A model generated the notes under the pieces. It did not search any database, had not been told where the DNA came from, and saw only the letters and a list, made by a program, of their open reading frames with translations. A stretch of 64,000 bases of DNA from Spirochaetaceae bacterium (GTDB lineage: Bacteria > Spirochaetota > Spirochaetia > DSM-27196 > PWMO01). This document shows positions 2,191-43,821 of this stretch, piece after piece. The stretch's first letter is position 1. Every line of letters starts with the position of its first letter. The stretch is taken from NCBI GenBank assembly GCA_007693485.1, contig REDM01000178.1, positions 1 to 64,000 on the forward strand. Direction: 5' to 3'. Position numbers and translations under genes: made by a program.

Positions 2191-4764
2191 ATGAACTACG
2201 ACAAGCTGACCATCAAGACCCAGGAGGCACTCCAGGAGGCCTCCTCAATTGCCACGCGGCACAACCACGCGACCATCGACCCGGAGCACCTGCTTTCTGC
2301 CATGATGCTGCAGGCCGATGGGGTCATTCCGCCGCTTCTGAACCGGCTCGGCGTTGCACAGCCCGAGATTGCGGAGCGCACCGAGGCGCTCATCACCAAA
2401 AAACCGCGCGCCTACGGCGAGAACGCCGAACTGCGCATGTCGCCGGCGCTCTCCCGGCTGCTGGTGGCCGCGCAGACCGAGGCAACGGCGCTCAAGGACG
2501 AATACGTCAGCACCGAACACCTGCTGCTCGCGATGCTCGCCGACCAGAGCGACCTCGCTCGGATGCTGGCGTCCGTGGGGGTGACCAAGCCGCAGATCCT
2601 GCAGGCGCTGCAGAGCATCCGCGGCAACCAGCGCGTCACCGACCAGAACCCCGAAAACCGGTACCAGGTGCTGGAGAAGTACTGCCGCGACCTCACGGAG
2701 CTCGCGCGGCGCGAGAAGCTCGATCCGGTCATCGGTCGGGACGACGAGATCCGCCGCATCATGCAGGTGCTCTCGCGGCGCACCAAGAACAATCCGGTGC
2801 TCATCGGTGACCCCGGCGTGGGAAAGACCGCCATCGTCGAGGGACTCGCCCGTCGCATTGTCTCCGGCGATGTGCCCGAGTCGCTGAAAGACAAGCAGGT
2901 GCTCTCGCTGGATCTCGGCTCCCTGGTTGCGGGAACCAAGTTTCGCGGCGAGTTCGAAGAGCGGCTGAAGGGAGTTATCCACGAGATCACCCAGTCCGAA
3001 GGAAGGATCATTCTCTTCATCGACGAGTTGCACACCCTCGTGGGGGCCGGGAGTGCGGAGGGCTCCATGGACGCCTCCAACCTCCTGAAACCCGCCCTCG
3101 CGCGGGGAGAACTGCGCGCCATCGGGGCCACCACCCTCGATGAGTTCCGCAAGCACATCGAGAAAGATCCGGCCCTCGAGCGGCGATTCCAGCAGGTCTT
3201 CACCGGTGAACCGTCGGTGGAAAACACCGTGGCGATTCTTCGCGGCCTGAAAGAGCGCTACGAGGTCCACCACGGCGTGCGCATCAAGGACGAAGCCCTC
3301 ATCGCCGCGGCAACCCTCTCGGACCGGTACATCACCTCGCGGTTTCTTCCCGACAAGGCGATCGACCTCATCGACGAGGCGGCAAGCCGGCTCAAGATTG
3401 AGATCGAGAGCCAGCCTACAGAGCTCGATCAGCTCGACCGAAAGATCCTGCAGCTCAATATCGAAAAGCAGGCGCTGCAGAAGGAGCGCGATGACGCATC
3501 GCGCGAGCGACTCGGCAAGATCGAGCAGGAGCTCGCCGACCTCAAACACGCTCGTGACGCCAAGCAGATGCAGTGGCAGAACGAAAAGACCATCATCGAT
3601 TCGATCCGCGAGCTCAAGCAGAAGCTCGAGAACGCCAGCATGGAGGAGACCCGCTACGAGCGTGAGGGAAACCTCGCCAAGGCCGCTGAGATCAAGCACG
3701 GAATCATCCCGTCGCTCGAGCGAGAGCTCGCGGACAAGAGCGACCGCCTGAAAGAGATTCAGAAAGGACAGACCCTGCTGCGCGAAGAGGTCTCCGAGGA
3801 GGATATCGCTCTGGTGGTCTCTGCGTGGACCGGGATTCCGGTCTCGCGCATGCTGCAGTCCGAGATGGAGAAGCTGCTGCGGCTCGAGGCGATCCTGGAA
3901 GAGCGGGTCGTGGGACAGGCAGGTGCAATCGGGGCCGTGTCCGACGCCATTCGGCGCAACAAGAGCGGGCTCTCCGACGTCAACCGGCCTACCGGCACCT
4001 TTCTCTTCATTGGCCCCACCGGCGTGGGCAAAACCGAGCTGGCAAAGACGCTCGCGCAATTTCTCTTCAGCGACGAGAAGGCGCTCACCCGCATCGACAT
4101 GAGCGAGTACATGGAGAAGCACGCGGTTTCCCGGCTCATCGGGGCACCTCCCGGCTACGTTGGCTACGACCAGGGCGGCCAGCTCACCGAAGTGGTGCGT
4201 CGACGCCCCTACTCGGTGGTGCTCTTCGACGAGATCGAGAAGGCACACCCCGACGTCTTCAACGTGCTCCTGCAGCTGCTCGACGAGGGGCGGCTCACCG
4301 ACGGGCAGGGTCGCCTGGTAGACTTCCGGAACAGCATCATCATCATGACGAGTAATCTCGGAAGCGACATGATTCTGCAGGCCGAGACGGTGGAAGCGGT
4401 GCGGCCGCAGATCACGACCCTTCTGCACGCCACCTTCAAGCCGGAGTTTCTCAACCGGCTCGACGAGGTGATCACCTTCAACCGGCTCGGGAAACCGGAG
4501 ATCACCCGCATCGTTGACCTGGAGCTGAAGCGCGTTGCGGCGCGGCTGCAGGAGCGTCGAATCACCCTCGAACTCGACGAATCCGCAAAGCTGCTTCTGG
4601 CCGACCGCGGGTTTGACCCGGCCTTTGGGGCGCGGCCGCTCAAGCGGGCGGTGCAGAGCCTGCTGCAGAATCCGCTCGCCCGTCGTATCCTCTCCGGCGA
4701 GTTCCCGGAGGGTTCGCGGATTCGCGTCACCCGAAACGGAGAAGAGCTCGCCTTCGGCTCATAG
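2191..4764 (+). CDS. clpB: ATP-dependent chaperone ClpB
   Basis: Two AAA modules ([30 protein letters not shown]), middle coiled-coil, Clp N domain; ATG at 2191 after GGAG. Confidence 0.96.
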
Positions 4765-4878
4765 CAGTGCCGGCCCCGGGGGAGCCCGGAGCTGCAATCC
4801 GGCGCGTCCGACGCTTGCACGGGCGCGCCGTTGTGTGCACACTGAATCTCAACACGAACACCCGCGGGAGCGATCAGA

Positions 4879-6252
4879 ATGGCAACCCTCTGGCAGAAAG
4901 AGTATCAGGTCGATGACCTTGTGCACCGGTTTACCGTTGGAAACGACTACCTTCTGGATCGGCGGCTCGTTGCCGCTGACTGCGCAGGCAGCCTCGCCCA
5001 CGCCACCATGTTGCACAGTATCGGGGTGATCTCGGCGGCAGAACTCGACGAGTTGCGCGCCGGGCTGCTCGAGATCGTGGCCGATCACGAACGGAACGCC
5101 TTTGAGATCAAGCCCCAGGATGAGGACTGCCACACCGCCATCGAGAACCGGCTCACCGAGCGGTTCCCCGAGGCAGGGGCCAAGATCCATACCGGCCGTT
5201 CGCGAAACGATCAGGTGCTTACCGCAACGCGGATCTACCTTCGCGCAGCCCTGTTGGAGCTGATGCGCCATACGATCTCGGCTGCACACGCCTTTCTCGA
5301 TCTGGCCTCCACTCACCAGAACACGCCCATGCCCGGTCGCACCCACCTGCAGACGGCCATGCCATCCTCGGTTGGCCTCTGGGCCGCCTCCTTTGTTGAT
5401 GCCCTGCTCGATGACCTTTCCCTTCTGCAGACGGCGCTTGACCTTGCCGACCGCAGCCCCCTCGGCGCGGCCGCGAGCTACGGGGTACCGCTGCCGCTGG
5501 ACCGCGAGCTCACCGCGCGGCTGCTCGGCTTTGCATCGGTGCACGGCAACGTGCTCGCGGTCAACAACTCCCGCGGAAAGATCGAAGCAATCGCCCTCGA
5601 CGCGGCCGACTCCGCGGTGTCAACCGTCTCGAAGGCGGCGGTCGACCTCATTCTGTTTTCCCTGCCGGAGTTTGGCTACTTCGAGCTGCCCGTAGAGATG
5701 TGCACCGGCAGCAGCATCATGCCGCAGAAGAAGAACCCCGACGTGCTCGAGCTTACCCGCGCGAGGGCGGGGACGCTGTCGGGTATCGCAGTGCAGCTGA
5801 AGAACGCGGTGCGAAACCTGCCCTCGGGGTACAACCGCGATCTGCAGGAGACCAAGGAGCCAATGCTGCGCGGCATGGACATCGCCTGCGGGGTGATGGA
5901 GATCATGGCAGAGACGGTGCGCCGCCTGCGGGTCAATCCCGAAGCGCTCGTGCGCGCCTGCACCCCGGAGCTCTTTGCCACCGACGAGGCCTTTGCCCTG
6001 GTGCAGCAGGGGGTTCCGTTTCGTGAAGCGTACCGCCGCGTGGCCGCCAACCTCGACGCGGTCGCCTCGGCGGATCCCGTCGCGGCCCTCGCGCGGCGCA
6101 CCGCCACGGGCACTCCGGGCAACCTCGGGCTCGACGACCTTCGCTCACGGCTCGAGGGCGTTGCATCGGCACGGACTCAGCGAGAAGCGTACGTGACTGC
6201 TGCACTCACCGCGCTCTTCGGTCGTGAGGCTGCGGTGCTCGGCGGTCGCTGA
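4879..6252 (+). CDS. argH: argininosuccinate lyase
   Basis: GSSIMPQKKNPDVLEL signature, TGRSRNDQV, GRTHLQTAMPSS. Confidence 0.95.
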   Translation: MATLWQKEYQVDDLVHRFTVGNDYLLDRRLVAADCAGSLAHATMLHSIGVISAAELDELRAGLLEIVADHERNAFEIKPQDEDCHTAIENRLTERFPEAGAKIHTGRSRNDQVLTATRIYLRAALLELMRHTISAAHAFLDLASTHQNTPMPGRTHLQTAMPSSVGLWAASFVDALLDDLSLLQTALDLADRSPLGAAASYGVPLPLDRELTARLLGFASVHGNVLAVNNSRGKIEAIALDAADSAVSTVSKAAVDLILFSLPEFGYFELPVEMCTGSSIMPQKKNPDVLELTRARAGTLSGIAVQLKNAVRNLPSGYNRDLQETKEPMLRGMDIACGVMEIMAETVRRLRVNPEALVRACTPELFATDEAFALVQQGVPFREAYRRVAANLDAVASADPVAALARRTATGTPGNLGLDDLRSRLEGVASARTQREAYVTAALTALFGREAAVLGGR

Positions 6253-7158
6253 TCAGAAGTGCGCGTCGATGCGGCGACGGCGTCGCCGCGGTTTGGTGGA
6301 ACGAAGCGCAGAATAGAAGATCATGGCAATGACGGTGATCGCGTAGGGCAGGCCCAGCAGAATCGTGCCGGGGATGTTCAGGAAGCCCTGGGCCGCCCCG
6401 GCGAGGCTGTCGGTCAGGCCAAAGAGCAGGGCGGCAATCACAATCCCCAGCGGTGTCCGGTATCCCAGATAGATGGCAACCAGGGCAATCCACCCCCGTC
6501 CCGCGCTGATATTGGGCAGATAGACCCCGAGACGAAGCGATATGGTGGATCCGGCGAGCCCGGCCGCAACCCCGGACACCACAATGGCGATGCTGCGGTA
6601 GCGTACCGCGTTGACACCTGAGACTACCGCGCTCTCAGCTCGCGCGCCCGTGGCCCGCAGCCGCAGACCGAAGGGGGTGCGATAGAGAAGCACCGCAGCG
6701 ATGACCGCCGTCAGCCACGCCAGGTAGACCGTCACGCTGTGTCCAAACAGAAGATCATCCAGCAGCGGCAATCCGGTGTGCACCCCCACCAGCAGGCGCG
6801 GCATCCGTGGCAGATCCGGGAAACGCAGGACCCCCTTGGTTCCAAACATCCAGGTGGACAGAAAGGGTATCATTCCGGCTGCCAGCAGGTTTACCGCCAG
6901 TCCGGCGATGAAGATATTCGCCTTCAGGCGCGAGGTCACCCAGGCGAGCAGACCCGCGAGCACTCCACCGGCAACCGCGGCCGCCACCATCCCCACCGCA
7001 AGGCTTCCCGTGGCGGCGGCAACGAGGATCCCGGTGAAAGCCCCAATCAGGATCAGCCCCTCGAGGGCGATATTGAGTACCCCGGCCATCTCGGCGAAGA
7101 GGCCGCCAAGCGCCGCGAGCAGGATGGGCGTCATGATCTCGACGCCGTTGAACATCAT
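6253..7158 (-). CDS. ABC transporter permease (BmpA/nucleoside-type, YufQ-like)
   Basis: BPD_transp_2-like: NIALEGLILIGAFTGILV, GRGWIALVAIYLG; operon with permease, ATPase and BMP lipoprotein. Confidence 0.82.
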   Translation of the reverse strand: MMFNGVEIMTPILLAALGGLFAEMAGVLNIALEGLILIGAFTGILVAAATGSLAVGMVAAAVAGGVLAGLLAWVTSRLKANIFIAGLAVNLLAAGMIPFLSTWMFGTKGVLRFPDLPRMPRLLVGVHTGLPLLDDLLFGHSVTVYLAWLTAVIAAVLLYRTPFGLRLRATGARAESAVVSGVNAVRYRSIAIVVSGVAAGLAGSTISLRLGVYLPNISAGRGWIALVAIYLGYRTPLGIVIAALLFGLTDSLAGAAQGFLNIPGTILLGLPYAITVIAMIFYSALRSTKPRRRRRRIDAHF

Positions 7159-37347: not shown

Positions 37348-38004
37348 ATGCCAACCAACCGCCGGCGTCGACGACCGCCCAACCGACTCAAGGAGCACTT
37401 CAACGCGATGCATCTCTTTCTTACCGGGGCCCTCGTGCTTCCCGCCTACCTGTTTCAGCCGCTGCTCGTTGTGCGGATCGCACAGGTGCTGCTCTTTGCC
37501 GGGCTCGCCCACCTGGCCGGAAAACGCATCATGTGGATCTACTTTGCCATTACCGTTGCGTCGATCGCCTTCTTCAACCTGCTCACGCCGTTTGGCCGGG
37601 TGTTGGTATCTCTTGGGCCCCTGACGATCACGCGCGGTGCGCTCGAGGGCGGACTGATGAAGGGGTTCACCATCGTTGGGCTCGTGTTTATCTCGCTCTT
37701 TTCCATTCGTCCTGACCTGCGATTGCCGGGACGTCTGGGGGGGCTGGTCGCGCGGGTGTTTTTCTACTTTGAGCGTATTATCGAGGGCAAAAAGCGGATT
37801 CAGGCCCGCCGCCTGATTGCGAGTATCGACGATGTTCTGGAAGAACTCTACGTGCCGGGCTCCGTTGCGGAAACTGCACCGGTGGAACGGATTGACACAA
37901 CGGCTTTGGGGTATGCTCTGATGGTGGCGGTCCTGGGACTCAACTGGGGGCTGCTCCTTGTTCAATCTCACATCGACTTGGTAGGATGGATGACATGGGT
38001 TTGA
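37348..38004 (+). CDS. membrane protein, possibly EcfT/CbiQ-like
   Basis: Multi-TM followed by a cytoplasmic basic segment [30 protein letters not shown]; adjacent to the Gx-type protein. Confidence 0.45.
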
Positions 38005-39200
38005 GTGCCCGAATGGAAGCAGAATTCTCCCGCATCGATGCGGATCTCGCGCGTCTCAAGGACAACGGGCTCTACAAGCGCGAGCGGATTATCACCGGAC
38101 CGCAAGACGCGCATATTTCGGTGGAAGACGGACGCACGGTCATTAACCTCTGCGCCAACAATTATCTGGGGCTTGCCGCCCACCCCGAGGTGATCGCAGC
38201 GGCTCACGAAGCGCTCGATCGCTGGGGTTACGGCCTCTCTTCGGTGCGGTTCATCTGCGGAACCCAGGAGATCCACCGCCGGCTTGAGCAGGAGCTCGCG
38301 GAGTTTCTCGGGACCGAAGATGCGATCCTCTACGCCTCCTGTTTTGATGCCAACGGCGGCCTGTTTGAGACCCTGCTCGGGCCCGAGGACGCAGTGATCT
38401 CGGACTCGCTGAACCACGCGAGTATCATCGACGGCATCCGGCTCTGCAAGGCGCGGCGCCATCTCTACCGCAACGCGGACATGAACGAGCTGGAGGAGCG
38501 GCTGCGGGAAACTCAAGATGCTCGCGTCCGGCTGATCGCGACCGACGGTGTTTTTTCGATGGATGGGACCATCGCGCCCCTGGATAAGATCTGCGATCTG
38601 GCAGAACGGTACGACGCCCTGGTAATGATTGATGATTGCCACGCCGTGGGGTTTCTGGGTGAGGGCGGACGGGGCACCCACGAGTACCGCGGAGTCATCG
38701 ACCGGGTGGACATCATCACCGGCACCCTCGGAAAGGCACTCGGGGGCGCGAGTGGTGGGTATACCGCGGCACGGCGCTCGGTGGTTGAGATGCTGCGCCA
38801 GCGTTCGAGACCCTATCTGTTCTCCAACTCGGTGGCACCGCCGATCGTCGGGGCGTCCCTGGCTGCCCTGGATCTGGTGCGCCGCGATACGACGCTTCGC
38901 ACCCGCCTCTTCGAGAACACCGCCTGGTTTCGCAGCGCCCTCGCTGCCGCAGGTCTGACCGTGCCCGAGGGTACCCATCCCATCGTGCCCATCATGCTGG
39001 GAGAGGCACAGATCGCCCAGACCATGGCAACGCGGCTTCTGGAGCACGGCATCTATGCGGTTGGATTTTTCTTCCCGGTGGTTCCGCAGGGAACCGCCCG
39101 TATTCGAACCCAGGTCTCCGCGGCGCACTCCCGCGAGGATCTCGAACGCGCGGTTACCGCCTTTGCCGAGGTGGCCCGCGATCTTGGCGTGTTGGCGTGA
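37986..39200 (+). CDS. kbl: glycine C-acetyltransferase (2-amino-3-ketobutyrate CoA ligase)
   Basis: Near-colinear with Kbl: [86 protein letters not shown]. Confidence 0.93.
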
Positions 39201-39231: not shown

Positions 39232-40296
39232 GTGGACTACATGATCAGTGGGATACAGCAGATTGGGGTTGGAATTCCCGACAAGGAGCGTGCCTGGCGC
39301 TGGTACCGCGAGCACTTCAACATGGATGTGCCGGTGTTTCAGGAGGCCGCGGAGGCCCCGCTCATGACGCTCTACACCGGGGGTGTGGTCCAGAGCCGTG
39401 ACGCGGCCCTCGCCCTCAACATGGCCGGTGGTGGCGGATTTGAGATCTGGCAGTACACAAGCCGGATTCCGGTGCCCCCGTCCTTCCAGCCCGCGCTCGG
39501 CGATTTTGGAATTCTCGCTGCGCGTATCAAGACGCAGGATACCCGCGCGGTGGAGCGAAGGCTGCGTGAGCGGGGGGCCATGGTGCTTGGAAAGAGCGCT
39601 GCCGATCCGGTCGGCAACCTGCACTGTTTTGTGCTCGACCCGCACGGTTTCCTGTTTGATGTGGTGACCGAACGGGAGGGCTGGTTTGGGAGGACGGGCC
39701 CGAGCGGAACCGGCGGAGTCAGCGGCGCCATGATCGGCGTGTCCGACGTGGAAGCCGCCCGGCGGCTCTACAGCGGTCTCTTGGGGTATGACCGGGTTGT
39801 GTACGACGAATCCGGGGTGTTCGACGACCTTTCAGCCCTTCCCGGTGGTGGGGCGACGCTGCGACGGGTACTGCTGACACACTCTCAGCCGCGAAGCGGT
39901 GCGTTCTCGCAGCTTCTGGGCCCCACGTCGATCGAGCTGATTCAGGGGCTGGACCGCGACGGCCGCAACCTCTTTCGCGACCGGTACTGGGGTGACCTCG
40001 GGTTCATTCACCTCTGTTTCGACGTCATCGGTATGAACGCGCTCAAGGAAGCCGCAGCGGATGCCGGATTCGCCTTCACCGTCGACAGCGGTGAAAGCTT
40101 TGACATGGGAGAGGCTGCCGGACGGTTTGCCTATCTGGAAGATCCGGACGGGAATCTGATTGAGTTTGTGGAAACGCACCGCGTCCCGATCATCAAGGCT
40201 GCCGGCTGGTACCTCAACCTGCAGAAGCGCAACCCGCGAAAGCCGTTGCCGCGCATGATGATCAGGGCGATGGGATTGGGCCGCATCAAGGAGTGA
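39232..40296 (+). CDS. two-domain VOC (glyoxalase/dioxygenase-like) protein
   Basis: IQQIGVGIPDKERAWRWYREHF and GAMIGVSDVEAARRLYSGLLGYD repeats; C-terminal YLEDPDGNLIEFVE; GTG start after GAGGAG. Confidence 0.8.
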   Translation: MDYMISGIQQIGVGIPDKERAWRWYREHFNMDVPVFQEAAEAPLMTLYTGGVVQSRDAALALNMAGGGGFEIWQYTSRIPVPPSFQPALGDFGILAARIKTQDTRAVERRLRERGAMVLGKSAADPVGNLHCFVLDPHGFLFDVVTEREGWFGRTGPSGTGGVSGAMIGVSDVEAARRLYSGLLGYDRVVYDESGVFDDLSALPGGGATLRRVLLTHSQPRSGAFSQLLGPTSIELIQGLDRDGRNLFRDRYWGDLGFIHLCFDVIGMNALKEAAADAGFAFTVDSGESFDMGEAAGRFAYLEDPDGNLIEFVETHRVPIIKAAGWYLNLQKRNPRKPLPRMMIRAMGLGRIKE

Positions 40297-40335: not shown

Positions 40336-41625
40336 CTATGCTGCGCTTTTTCCGTAGACCCGGGTGATCTTTGCTTCGTCTTCGCCGTTGAACTTCAGAT
40401 CCATCTTCAGCTCGTCGCGCATCTGCCGAAAGACTTCGATGGTCCGGTTGATGTCGTCGTCGTTGTGGGATGTGGTGGGAATCATCCGGAACATACAGAG
40501 CCCCAGCGGGATGACCGGGTAGGTGATTGCGGTGGCAAACACGCCGCGGTCGCGCAGGAAGCGGACCAGCTGCTTGCCGACCTCCTCGGTCTGACGCCCA
40601 TTGATAGGGGCAAACACCGCACAGATGGGGGACTCGCCCGCGCCAATGAAATACCCAAGCTCTCGCAGTCCATTTTTCAGTTTGTCGGAGTTTTCCCACA
40701 TCTTTGCGCGATTTGCATCGGCGTTCTTCACGAGATCCAGGGTCTTCTGCAGCGATTTCACGTAGATCATGGGAAGACTCTTGGCAAACACCTGGGTGCG
40801 AGCGTTGTAGCTTATCCAGTCGCGCACCGCCTTGGTTGTTGCCGAGAAACCGCCGATTGATGCGAACGCCTTGGCGAAGGTTCCAAAGTAGACGTCCACC
40901 TCGTCCTGCACGCCAAAGTGATCGGCAACGCCCCGTCCCTGAGAGCCCATGACGCCCCAGCCGTGCGCGTCGTCCACGAAGATGCGGAAGTTGTATTTCT
41001 TCTTCAGTGCGGCGATCTCGTCCAGTCGCGCAAGGTCGCCGGTCATGCCGTAGACGCCCTCGACAAGGACCATCGATCCACCCTTACCCTGCTTCTCTAC
41101 GCTCTGCAGCACACTCTCGAGGTCGGCGATGTTGTTGTGCTTGAACACCCGAACCTGCCCCGGCGCCATCATCGCCGCATCGACGATACAGGCATGGGCG
41201 AGCTTGTCCATGATGAGGGTATCCTCGGGACCCGCGAGTGAGGTGATGGTACCAATGACGCCCAGGTATCCGTAGTTAAACAGGATTGCGGCTTCCTTCT
41301 GCGTGAACGCTGCAAGTTCGCGCTCAAGCTGAAGGTGGTACGGGGTATTGCCGGTCATCATCCGGGAACCCATCGGTGCGCTGACCCCGTAGGTTTGAGC
41401 TGCCTCTACGGCGACCTGCTTGATCTCTTCGTTCTCCGCCAGGCCGAGGTAGTTGTTCACCGACCACATGATGCGAGGGCTCCCCTCGAACTCCATCATT
41501 CGTCCGGGAATCGGGTCGACAATCGGTCGGGTGAAGTAGTGATCGTCTTCTACCCGCTGGCCGCCATAGTACCCGCCATCACCATGACACTTATCAAAGA
41601 TGTCCGGTCGCGTGTTCATCTCCAT
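40336..41625 (-). CDS. alpha-oxoamine synthase family PLP enzyme (SPT/AONS-like); candidate cysteate-fatty acyltransferase
   Basis: NNYLGLAENEEIKQ, GSRMMTGNTPYHLQLERELAAF, DDAHGWGVMGSQGRG, GTFAKAFASIGGF PLP lysine; ATG 41625 has GGAGG RBS (ORF extends to 41637). Confidence 0.82.
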   Translation of the reverse strand: MEMNTRPDIFDKCHGDGGYYGGQRVEDDHYFTRPIVDPIPGRMMEFEGSPRIMWSVNNYLGLAENEEIKQVAVEAAQTYGVSAPMGSRMMTGNTPYHLQLERELAAFTQKEAAILFNYGYLGVIGTITSLAGPEDTLIMDKLAHACIVDAAMMAPGQVRVFKHNNIADLESVLQSVEKQGKGGSMVLVEGVYGMTGDLARLDEIAALKKKYNFRIFVDDAHGWGVMGSQGRGVADHFGVQDEVDVYFGTFAKAFASIGGFSATTKAVRDWISYNARTQVFAKSLPMIYVKSLQKTLDLVKNADANRAKMWENSDKLKNGLRELGYFIGAGESPICAVFAPINGRQTEEVGKQLVRFLRDRGVFATAITYPVIPLGLCMFRMIPTTSHNDDDINRTIEVFRQMRDELKMDLKFNGEDEAKITRVYGKSAA

Positions 41626-41640
41626 TGCTTCCTCCATATG

Positions 41641-42939
41641 CTATCGACGGGCACCGTCTGGTGCATCCATTACGAGCCGTGCAACCGTCTCAGGATGGGC
41701 TTCCGCGCGGGAAACCACCACTCTGGGAGCAACTGCATAGGTTTTCTGTTCTCGAGCAAACCGGCGCATACCGCCACCGGTGATGTTGAGCATGATTGTT
41801 GCATCGGGTTCGACCGAACCGTCGCGTACCGCGGCCACCAGGCTCGCAACCGCAACGGCGGCGGCCTCGGCAATGTCAATTCCTTCGGTATCTTCAAACA
41901 GCTGTGCGGCGGCACGGGCATCGTGGTTTTCGACCGCAAAGATCTCACCGTCGGTGGCGCAGAGTGCGTCGTAGAGACCACCGGTTACCGAGTAGGGTGG
42001 GTTGCGGTTTGAGAGCACCGCAGCGTAGATATCGTTGATCTGTGCTTTTTCGGTCGCCTCATCGCAATGCACGAGGGCCCGCGAGCGCAGCCTCCACGAG
42101 TCGTACATGAGGAGGAAGGGCGCGTTCTGGGACAGCATCAGTTTCATGGTGGTCTTCCCAAAGCGCCCGTCGGCGAGGAATCGCCGATTGGCCTCCCACG
42201 CGGCGATCGCTCCGGTCCCGCTTCCGATCGCCTGAAAGAAATAATCGGGGATGCGTCCGATGGTTGTGACGGCCGAGAGCACTGTGGTCCCCATTCCGTC
42301 GCGTCGGGCTACGTTGCGCGCACCGCCCTCGGCAACATAGCCGTCGAGCGATGCGATCATCGCAGCAAGGTCGATCGCGTCTGAGTAGTCGGCGCCGTCA
42401 CCTGCGGCCACTACCGTGACGCAGTTGTGCACCGGAAATGGGCTCCAGACGGCGTCGAGGTTTTTTTCGGGAACAACAACCACCGCCGGGATTCGATTCT
42501 GCGAACAGACGTGGATGAAGGCGCGCGCGGTGTTTCCCGCCGAGGCAACCACAAGCGATGCGGGAAAGTCGTCGGGAATGCGACCACACACCGAAAACGC
42601 CTCGCACTCCTTGAAGGTGCCGGTGAGCATCAGCGCGTCTCGTTCGGGCCAGTATCCGCTGAAGGTGACGTAGAGATTGTTCAGCCCCAGTTCGCGGGCG
42701 AGGCCGTTGCTTTTGTAGGTAATGGGAGCCGACGATCCCGAAAGGCTCCGCGACAGGGGGAGCCAGTCGCGGAAGCGATAGATCCCGTGATCGGCATCAA
42801 GCAGCTGTAACCGGCGCGCCTGGTACTCGGTACGAAGGAGGGCGGATTGAGGAGCCCCCGCGTTTCCCAGCAGAATGGTATTTCGACTGTCGGGAAGACG
42901 GTGGCCGGAACCCAAGCAGGTGAGTTCGTATTCTGTCAT
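41641..42939 (-). CDS. threonine-synthase-fold PLP enzyme, cysteate-synthase-like
   Basis: ITYKSNGLARELGLNNLYVTFSGYWPERDALMLTGTFKECEAF, ASAGNTARAFIHV, GSGTGAIAAWEA; resembles archaeal cysteate synthase more than canonical ThrC. Confidence 0.7.
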   Translation of the reverse strand: MTEYELTCLGSGHRLPDSRNTILLGNAGAPQSALLRTEYQARRLQLLDADHGIYRFRDWLPLSRSLSGSSAPITYKSNGLARELGLNNLYVTFSGYWPERDALMLTGTFKECEAFSVCGRIPDDFPASLVVASAGNTARAFIHVCSQNRIPAVVVVPEKNLDAVWSPFPVHNCVTVVAAGDGADYSDAIDLAAMIASLDGYVAEGGARNVARRDGMGTTVLSAVTTIGRIPDYFFQAIGSGTGAIAAWEANRRFLADGRFGKTTMKLMLSQNAPFLLMYDSWRLRSRALVHCDEATEKAQINDIYAAVLSNRNPPYSVTGGLYDALCATDGEIFAVENHDARAAAQLFEDTEGIDIAEAAAVAVASLVAAVRDGSVEPDATIMLNITGGGMRRFAREQKTYAVAPRVVVSRAEAHPETVARLVMDAPDGARR

Positions 42940-43140
42940 GAACAACCTGTTCTTTTCACGCTGTGCCGATGATCAACAACCTTTCCGCCTATTGTCAACT
43001 GATTTCTTGTCGAATGGCTGTTCCTCATCGTTTTCTTACCGTTTGGCCGGGAACGCGCGTTCGTCGCTGCGCCGATTACAGAGAAAAGCAGTTTTTATGA
43101 CATAAAAGAGTAGTGAAGATTTGAGAATTGGATTCATTTT

Positions 43141-43821
43141 GTGTATGATAGAGTGGTGAGCGAACAGAGCCGGATTGCATCCGGTCGAACCGATCGTCGT
43201 GCCCTGCTTCTCTCGGTCGGGCGAACCTTGTTCGAGCGCAATGGGTATCGTGGCGTTTCGGTCGAACAGGTGACCCGCCGGGCCGGCCTGAGCGCAGGTA
43301 CCTTCTACAACTATTTCTCCGGCAAAGAGGCGTTCTACTCGAGTGTACTCGACGAAATCGAGGCTGAGGGGATCCGCAAGGCCAATCAGATTGTCCAGCG
43401 GCTGCATTCTCCCATGAACAAACTGCGCGCCCTCTATCGGTTTATTACCCTCGGGTTGCGTCAGAACCCCATTCTCAAAGGCATCTTCCTCGGGAAGGCC
43501 GAATACCGCTTCCCCGGCGCAACCGAGCGGTCGGCTCGAAGAGACGGGCTGAGGCCGCACCTTGAGCGCATGGTTGATGAGATCATCCGTGAGGGAACGC
43601 GCAAGGGAGTGTTTCGTGCGAGCCTCTACCACAATACCACGGCCATGGTGACCGCCGTCTTTGACGCGGTGATTCTGCACGTAGAAGACGATAACGCCGA
43701 AGAACTGTTTGCCGATCTTCTCACCTTTCTCCAGCGCGGCCTCCGCCGTGCGCTCCACCTTCGACGGCGCGATGAGCGTCGCGACCGCCGGCTGCTCGGT
43801 GAAGCATCGGACTGGATTTAA
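43141..43821 (+). CDS. TetR-family transcriptional regulator
   Basis: LLSVGRTLFERNGYRGVSVEQVTRRAGLSAGTFYNYFSGKEAFYSSVL; start codon is GTG (43141 or a slightly internal GTG). Confidence 0.9.
   Translation: MYDRVVSEQSRIASGRTDRRALLLSVGRTLFERNGYRGVSVEQVTRRAGLSAGTFYNYFSGKEAFYSSVLDEIEAEGIRKANQIVQRLHSPMNKLRALYRFITLGLRQNPILKGIFLGKAEYRFPGATERSARRDGLRPHLERMVDEIIREGTRKGVFRASLYHNTTAMVTAVFDAVILHVEDDNAEELFADLLTFLQRGLRRALHLRRRDERRDRRLLGEASDWI

Follow-up and report, generated by a model that had tools for sequence, protein, structure and literature searches.

Could two neighbouring genes allow a spirochaete to make L-cysteate and to acylate it, and thereby to begin the synthesis of a capnine-type sulfonolipid? 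This question is raised by a stretch of 64,000 nucleotides from a Spirochaetaceae bacterium (referred to here as the window), for which a sequence-only reading had proposed a cysteate synthase rather than a threonine synthase (ThrC), followed on the minus strand after a few bases by an acyltransferase resembling serine palmitoyltransferase (SPT), in a spirochaete-type host. Both genes, with the motifs quoted for them, are present, their open reading frames are intact, and the gap between the stop of the first and the start of the second is 3 bases; the match is much stronger than chance would give. The locus comprises the following features.

37986..39200, plus strand: Kbl (glycine C-acetyltransferase), a syntenic neighbour (TIGR01822, 657 bits, above the cut-off)
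39241..40296, plus strand: two-domain protein of the VOC/glyoxalase superfamily, a convergent neighbour (co-occurrence; fold)
40336..41637, minus strand: predicted alpha-oxoamine synthase of the CFAT/SulA/CapB type, 433 aa (PDB 28eh/7u7h, tree, residues)
41641..42939, minus strand: predicted cysteate synthase of the archaeal type, 432 aa (TIGR03844, PDB 9k3c, K110)
43114..43136, no strand: operator-like site TGAAGATTTGAGAATTGGATTCA (consensus scan)
43141..43821, plus strand: divergent regulator of the TetR family (TetR_N; neighbour tables)

The window is one contig (C40) of a 3.76-Mb genome that is 92% complete. A search of this genome for rRNA, for 16S placement, gave no match, and its placement relies on named relatives. 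The closest named relatives of the locus are MAGs labelled Spirochaetales, Spirochaetaceae or Spirochaetes, and synteny is common across the region; on these grounds the proposed spirochaete-type host held. The pair was found again in many independent spirochaete assemblies. One of the related loci (L019) has the gene order of the window and aligns with it along about 15 kb, where the DNA is 87-89% identical. The proteins of the pair are 94% and 99% identical between the two loci as against 89% for the surrounding DNA, and therefore both genes are under purifying selection.

Identity of the two enzymes

The product of the upstream gene scored 489.4 bits against the cysteate synthase model TIGR03844, whose curated cut-off is 324.9, whereas threonine synthase models gave at most 54 bits against a cut-off of 303. 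The solved structure that matched best, over the whole length, was 9k3c, which is named cysteate synthase (466 bits, E 8e-139); threonine synthase structures came next at only about 1e-12. The PLP lysine K110 (in GTFKECEAF) and the ASAGNT core are invariant in the synthase alignment, and a canonical ThrC is encoded elsewhere in the genome (G000:C243, locus L244). The call of a cysteate synthase rather than ThrC thus held, with a score over the TIGR03844 cut-off and far below every threonine synthase cut-off. The family is shown by sequence, and it is very likely that the enzyme is a cysteate synthase; that it converts O-phospho-L-serine and sulfite to L-cysteate is a prediction, as substrates and activity are inferred.

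For the downstream protein, the best solved structures were a cysteate-C-fatty acyltransferase (CFAT; 28eh) and SulA of Alistipes finegoldii (7u7h), both at 356 bits, while the top SPT structure reached only 236 bits. All family models remained below their cut-offs, namely those for SPT (285 and 291 bits against 640 and 500), Kbl (235 against 493 and 287 against 460) and BioF (296 against 426). A protein below every one of these equivalog cut-offs is what is expected if its true family has no model. Besides the PLP lysine (Lys256), the window CFAT keeps all active-site residues of SulA including Lys286, which corresponds to the diagnostic Lys281 of SulA. The K281A variant of SulA loses all activity, and this lysine has been proposed as a marker by the authors of that work (PMC9304779, Radka et al.). 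A lysine occupies this position in the window, in 50/50 covered spirochaete CFATs and in 33/33 Bacteroidota CFATs (counts that include a few loci that are one contig fetched twice), whereas the SPTs of the same spirochaete genomes have alanine in 7 of 8 cases, and so do both copies in the window genome. In a quick tree without bootstrap, the CFATs of spirochaetes and of Bacteroidota share one clade (SH-aLRT 99) with the cysteate acyltransferases that have been solved and assayed, and SPT and Kbl fall elsewhere. The identity of the window CFAT to the assayed enzymes is only about 45%.

An SPT-like acyltransferase that could act on cysteate had been proposed for this gene. The placement held, in that the protein belongs to the SulA/CapB clade, carries the Lys281 equivalent and is not itself an SPT, and the claim that it is distinct from the true Kbl next door held as well. 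The activity is inferred. We regard a cysteate acyltransferase as very likely, with clade and residue shown, and with cysteate and acyl-ACP or acyl-CoA as predicted substrates of a reaction that would give a 3-ketocapnine-type product. A grouping of the two enzymes with ThrC and with KBL/BioF, respectively, would have refuted the sequence-only reading; it was checked by family models and phylogeny and did not occur. By every sequence feature that could be tested, both enzymes belong to known families.

Distribution, operon variants and conserved neighbours

Of 398 Spirochaetia genomes, 58 contain CFAT, 64 contain the cysteate synthase and 53 contain both (Fisher p 7e-49, a value that is overstated as the genomes are related). 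Wherever both genes were on one contig they were adjacent and co-directional with the synthase first (45/45). In eight genomes they are on separate contigs, and in some of these, such as G619 and G539, both lie in the interior of their contigs, which shows that the pair can be split without loss. All five other sampled genomes of the window genus have both genes; in one genus (g5 of family f4) two genomes (G296, G517) have neither and others have both. A first phylum-wide sample had found the synthase in only one other genome of the class, which the denser sampling of the class shows to be a matter of thin sampling. The sequence-only reading could not have foreseen how widely the pair occurs in Spirochaetia, or that genes leading from sulfate to sulfite often adjoin it.

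Eleven genomes contain a synthase without a detected CFAT, four of them from family f58 (G573, G581, G593, G639), where the enzyme may serve another use of cysteate. Synthases without a CFAT nearby were also observed in two other families of the phylum (f20 and f38; L009-L014). In all three families cysteate is perhaps made for another purpose, for instance a coenzyme M-like product.

Two principal layouts were seen. In type A (window, L019-L022 and others) the TetR gene is divergent from synthase and CFAT; in type B (L041, L042, L095, L204, L212, L213, L236 and others) the order is CysD, CysN/C, synthase, CFAT and CysH. CysD and CysN activate sulfate, and CysH-type reductases release sulfite, from which cysteate synthase obtains its sulfur. 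The presence of sulfite genes in the relatives' operons thus lends indirect, inferential support to an activity with O-phosphoserine and sulfite, for which there is no enzyme assay. A search of the 92% complete window genome for CysD/CysH (PAPS_reduct family) gave no match, so that the source of sulfite is unidentified there, and these genes were likewise not found in a close relative (G585); they are present in two genomes of the same genus (G557 and G613).

Single loci contain further genes. In L228, synthase, CFAT and a short-chain dehydrogenase (SDR) follow each other with 4-bp overlaps, the SDR overlapping CFAT by 4 bp; in L234 an SDR precedes CysD-CysN/C-synthase-CFAT; and in L215 the pair has an SDR upstream and a PlsC-like acyltransferase downstream. 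These SDR and PlsC-like neighbours are candidates for later steps. Downstream of CFAT and CysH in L213, a single polypeptide of 1111 aa (3469-6804, minus strand) unites branched-chain 2-oxoacid dehydrogenase E1, transketolase-type, lipoyl and KAS III parts. It could plausibly make iso-fatty-acid primers, which would fit iso-branched bases. In the window genome, there were 25 SDR matches, two of which adjoin SPT genes. These two belong to near-duplicate clusters of SPT, SDR and a gene resembling quinone oxidoreductase (L003 at G000:C29 and L004 at G000:C157), with SDRs that are 83% identical. Their SDRs are no more than possible keto-reductases and are unproven as such. Judged by sequence, this spirochaete genome carries sphingolipid genes, in two copies, alongside the sulfonolipid pair.

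The TetR gene is conserved beside the pair in many loci. Its divergent region contains an operator-like palindrome with the consensus TGAATATTTGAA-N4-ATATTCA, which the window site matches at 15/20 positions. Sites of this kind were found in the divergent region of 17/24 TetR loci scanned, and 0/200 shuffles were as good. The consensus was derived from four loci that are counted among the 17/24, so that the test is partly circular for these four; two loci outside them match at 20/20 positions. A generic search for inverted repeats among the nearest relatives of the window revealed no shared operator. We consider it likely that the TetR protein controls the operon as a local repressor, although regulation is inferred.

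On the other side of the pair, the Kbl probably lies outside the pathway. The VOC protein occurs in 55/398 Spirochaetia genomes, and in 54 of these 55 it is accompanied by the synthase or CFAT (Fisher 1e-46 and 1e-49, again overstated because of relatedness). This co-occurrence is maintained even when the gene is distant or on another contig (G600, G470, G516, G547), and the VOC gene is absent from the four f58 genomes with a synthase and no CFAT and from f65 genomes. The Bacteroidota flanks examined showed no homologue, and no solved structure related by sequence was found. The AlphaFold model is a confident two-domain glyoxalase/dioxygenase fold (pLDDT 85.5). Foldseek recovered this general fold only (TM about 0.5-0.6), which does not point to a specific reaction. 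E232, H257 and E308 (alignment numbering) are invariant and, by inference, resemble the metal ligands of VOC proteins.

Proposed pathway and alternative explanations

We propose that the pair constitutes a short operon whose products carry out the first two committed steps in the synthesis of capnine-type sulfonolipids. The cysteate synthase would exchange the phosphate of O-phosphoserine for sulfite to yield L-cysteate. The CFAT/SulA-like enzyme would then form a PLP-cysteate aldimine, whose condensation with the thioester of a fatty acid (probably acyl-ACP) would release CO2 and give a sulfonated long-chain base of the 3-ketocapnine type. An SDR would next reduce this base (candidates lie beside the SPT genes here and, in some relatives, within the operon), a further enzyme, so far unidentified, would N-acylate it, and the divergent TetR would probably control the operon. 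Enzyme family, clade, diagnostic residue, adjacency and co-occurrence are shown by the computation; substrates, product and regulation are inferred. We consider it very likely that these are the first two steps of a spirochaetal sulfonolipid biosynthesis, while neither the lipid nor enzyme activity has been shown in any spirochaete. The inference that the pair supplies and acylates cysteate to give a sulfonated sphingoid-like lipid is therefore supported as far as the enzyme identities are concerned; the lipid, the reduction and the N-acylation remain unproven in this genome.

The most serious alternative, which we nevertheless judge unlikely, is that the pair condenses cysteate with a short acyl-CoA (acetyl or similar) to a small sulfonated amino-ketone serving as soluble osmolyte, signal or intermediate. 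Alpha-oxoamine synthases vary mainly in acyl length, a VOC partner is odd for a lipid pathway, and many carriers seem, by MAG name, to come from saline or soda-lake sites, where sulfonate osmolytes are inferred to be plausible. Against this, the nearest relatives that have been assayed work with long-chain donors, C16 or similar (PMC9304779; PMC11211663), and operons of relatives add the branched-chain starter/KAS III fusion and the PlsC-like acyltransferase. The second enzyme might instead be a sphingolipid SPT that happens to lie beside a cysteate synthase serving another need, such as a coenzyme M-like cofactor or a cysteate pool. Fold and PLP residues are indeed common to SPT, and some genomes have the synthase without CFAT. 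However, the Lys281 equivalent in the window and in all covered spirochaete copies, the separate SPT genes with alanine in the same genomes, the SPT model score of 285 against a cut-off of 640 and the separate clade make this very improbable.

That an ordinary threonine synthase and a Kbl/BioF enzyme were misread can be all but excluded. The superfamilies are identical (PALP, Aminotran_1_2), and the reading is rejected by the family cut-offs and the tree, with canonical ThrC (L244) and true Kbl found elsewhere in the genome. Recent acquisition of foreign DNA, or contamination of the MAG, from Bacteroidota would be suggested by the fact that the pathway is known from that phylum, and is likewise very unlikely. 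It is rejected by the synteny, since many independent spirochaete assemblies carry the pair between rny-ymdB-tlyA and VOC-Kbl; moreover, the spirochaete CFATs form a clade of their own, and Bacteroidota synthases nest among spirochaete ones and not the reverse.

Relation to known systems and evolution

Clade, PLP residues and Lys281 are common to the window CFAT and SulA, the cysteate acyl-ACP transferase of A. finegoldii (alfi_1224, PDB 7U7H), although the two are only about 45% identical. The window synthase scores over the cut-off of the archaeal cysteate synthase family (TIGR03844; Methanosarcina coenzyme M pathway, Alistipes/Odoribacter homologues), with PDB 9K3C as a close homologue. Unlike its archaeal-type kin, it shares an operon with CFAT, to which sulfate-activation genes are added in relatives: none of 70 non-spirochaete synthase loci had a CFAT in the flank examined (up to 10 kb), and in Bacteroidota with an archaeal-type synthase the two genes are unlinked. 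CFAT was present elsewhere in all three non-spirochaete genomes checked. In the capnine pathway (CapA-CapB of Capnocytophaga ochracea, CapC of Ornithobacterium), CapB is a CFAT as in the window, whereas CapA differs from the window synthase in belonging to another family, the CBS-like cysteate synthases. This family assignment of CapA comes from the literature. The archaeal enzyme has been called distantly related in a review (PMC10191378). The consecutive accessions of CapA and CapB (ACU93374.1, ACU93375.1; PMC12927429) suggest neighbouring genes, and a CBS-like, CapA-type gene lies just upstream of CFAT in 7/30 Bacteroidota CFAT loci. With this gene in the equivalent place, CFAT has a cysteate synthase as its partner in two independent arrangements. 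The SPT of Sphingobacterium multivorum (PDB 3A2B) has the fold and chemistry of CFAT but has alanine at the Lys281 equivalent and belongs to a separate clade; the window genome encodes SPTs of its own, next to an SDR.

The same review (PMC10191378) describes the sulfonolipid pathway as apparently restricted to Bacteroidota and possibly exclusive of sphingolipids. The genomes argue against both views, since a second phylum has the committed enzymes and SPT genes occur in the same genomes. With permissive thresholds, Wu et al. (PMC11211663) found homologues of synthase, CFAT and reductase over 13 phyla in human microbiota, and spirochaetes are unmentioned in their main text. In the literature searched, no paper names cysteate synthase together with spirochaetes, and none appears, by title and relevant passages, to report spirochaete sulfonolipids. 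New here are the phylum, the operon with sulfite-supply genes, the coexistence with SPT, the previously undescribed VOC partner, the divergent TetR with a conserved operator-like site, and a tree that nests the archaeal-type synthases of Bacteroidota in spirochaete diversity. In Bacteroidota, sulfonolipids contribute to gliding; they also induce choanoflagellates to form rosettes, and they modulate inflammation in hosts. Should spirochaetes prove to be another group of producers, this would alter the assignment of sulfonolipids to organisms in sediment, hypersaline and gut samples. For the later steps, which are poorly known, the operons supply clean candidates.

When the synthase tree was rooted on other Spirochaetota synthases, those of Bacteroidota and Chlorobiota fell inside the spirochaete operon group, and constraining the spirochaete synthases to one clade was rejected (AU p 0.003); 9k3c groups with Alistipes-type sequences. 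The spirochaete CFATs form their own clade beside those of Bacteroidota. Some supporting branches of the synthase tree are moderate (93), methanogens were left out and the root was assumed; the possibility that the Alistipes-type synthase originated in spirochaetes should accordingly be treated as a lead. A bolder reading, taken as one joint claim, would be that Spirochaetia own a pathway from sulfate to sulfonolipid, in which a dedicated two-domain VOC metalloenzyme that is not found beside the known Bacteroidota genes modifies the sulfonated base as an epimerase or oxygenase, that their lipids are unlike capnines, and that gut Bacteroidota (Alistipes, Odoribacter) obtained the archaeal-type synthase from a spirochaete-like donor; on balance we lean against it.

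The synthases of two spirochaete loci (L217 of G470 and L099 of G248) are very divergent, with 36% and 43% identity to that of the window and long branches in the tree, yet they adjoin a CFAT with Lys281.
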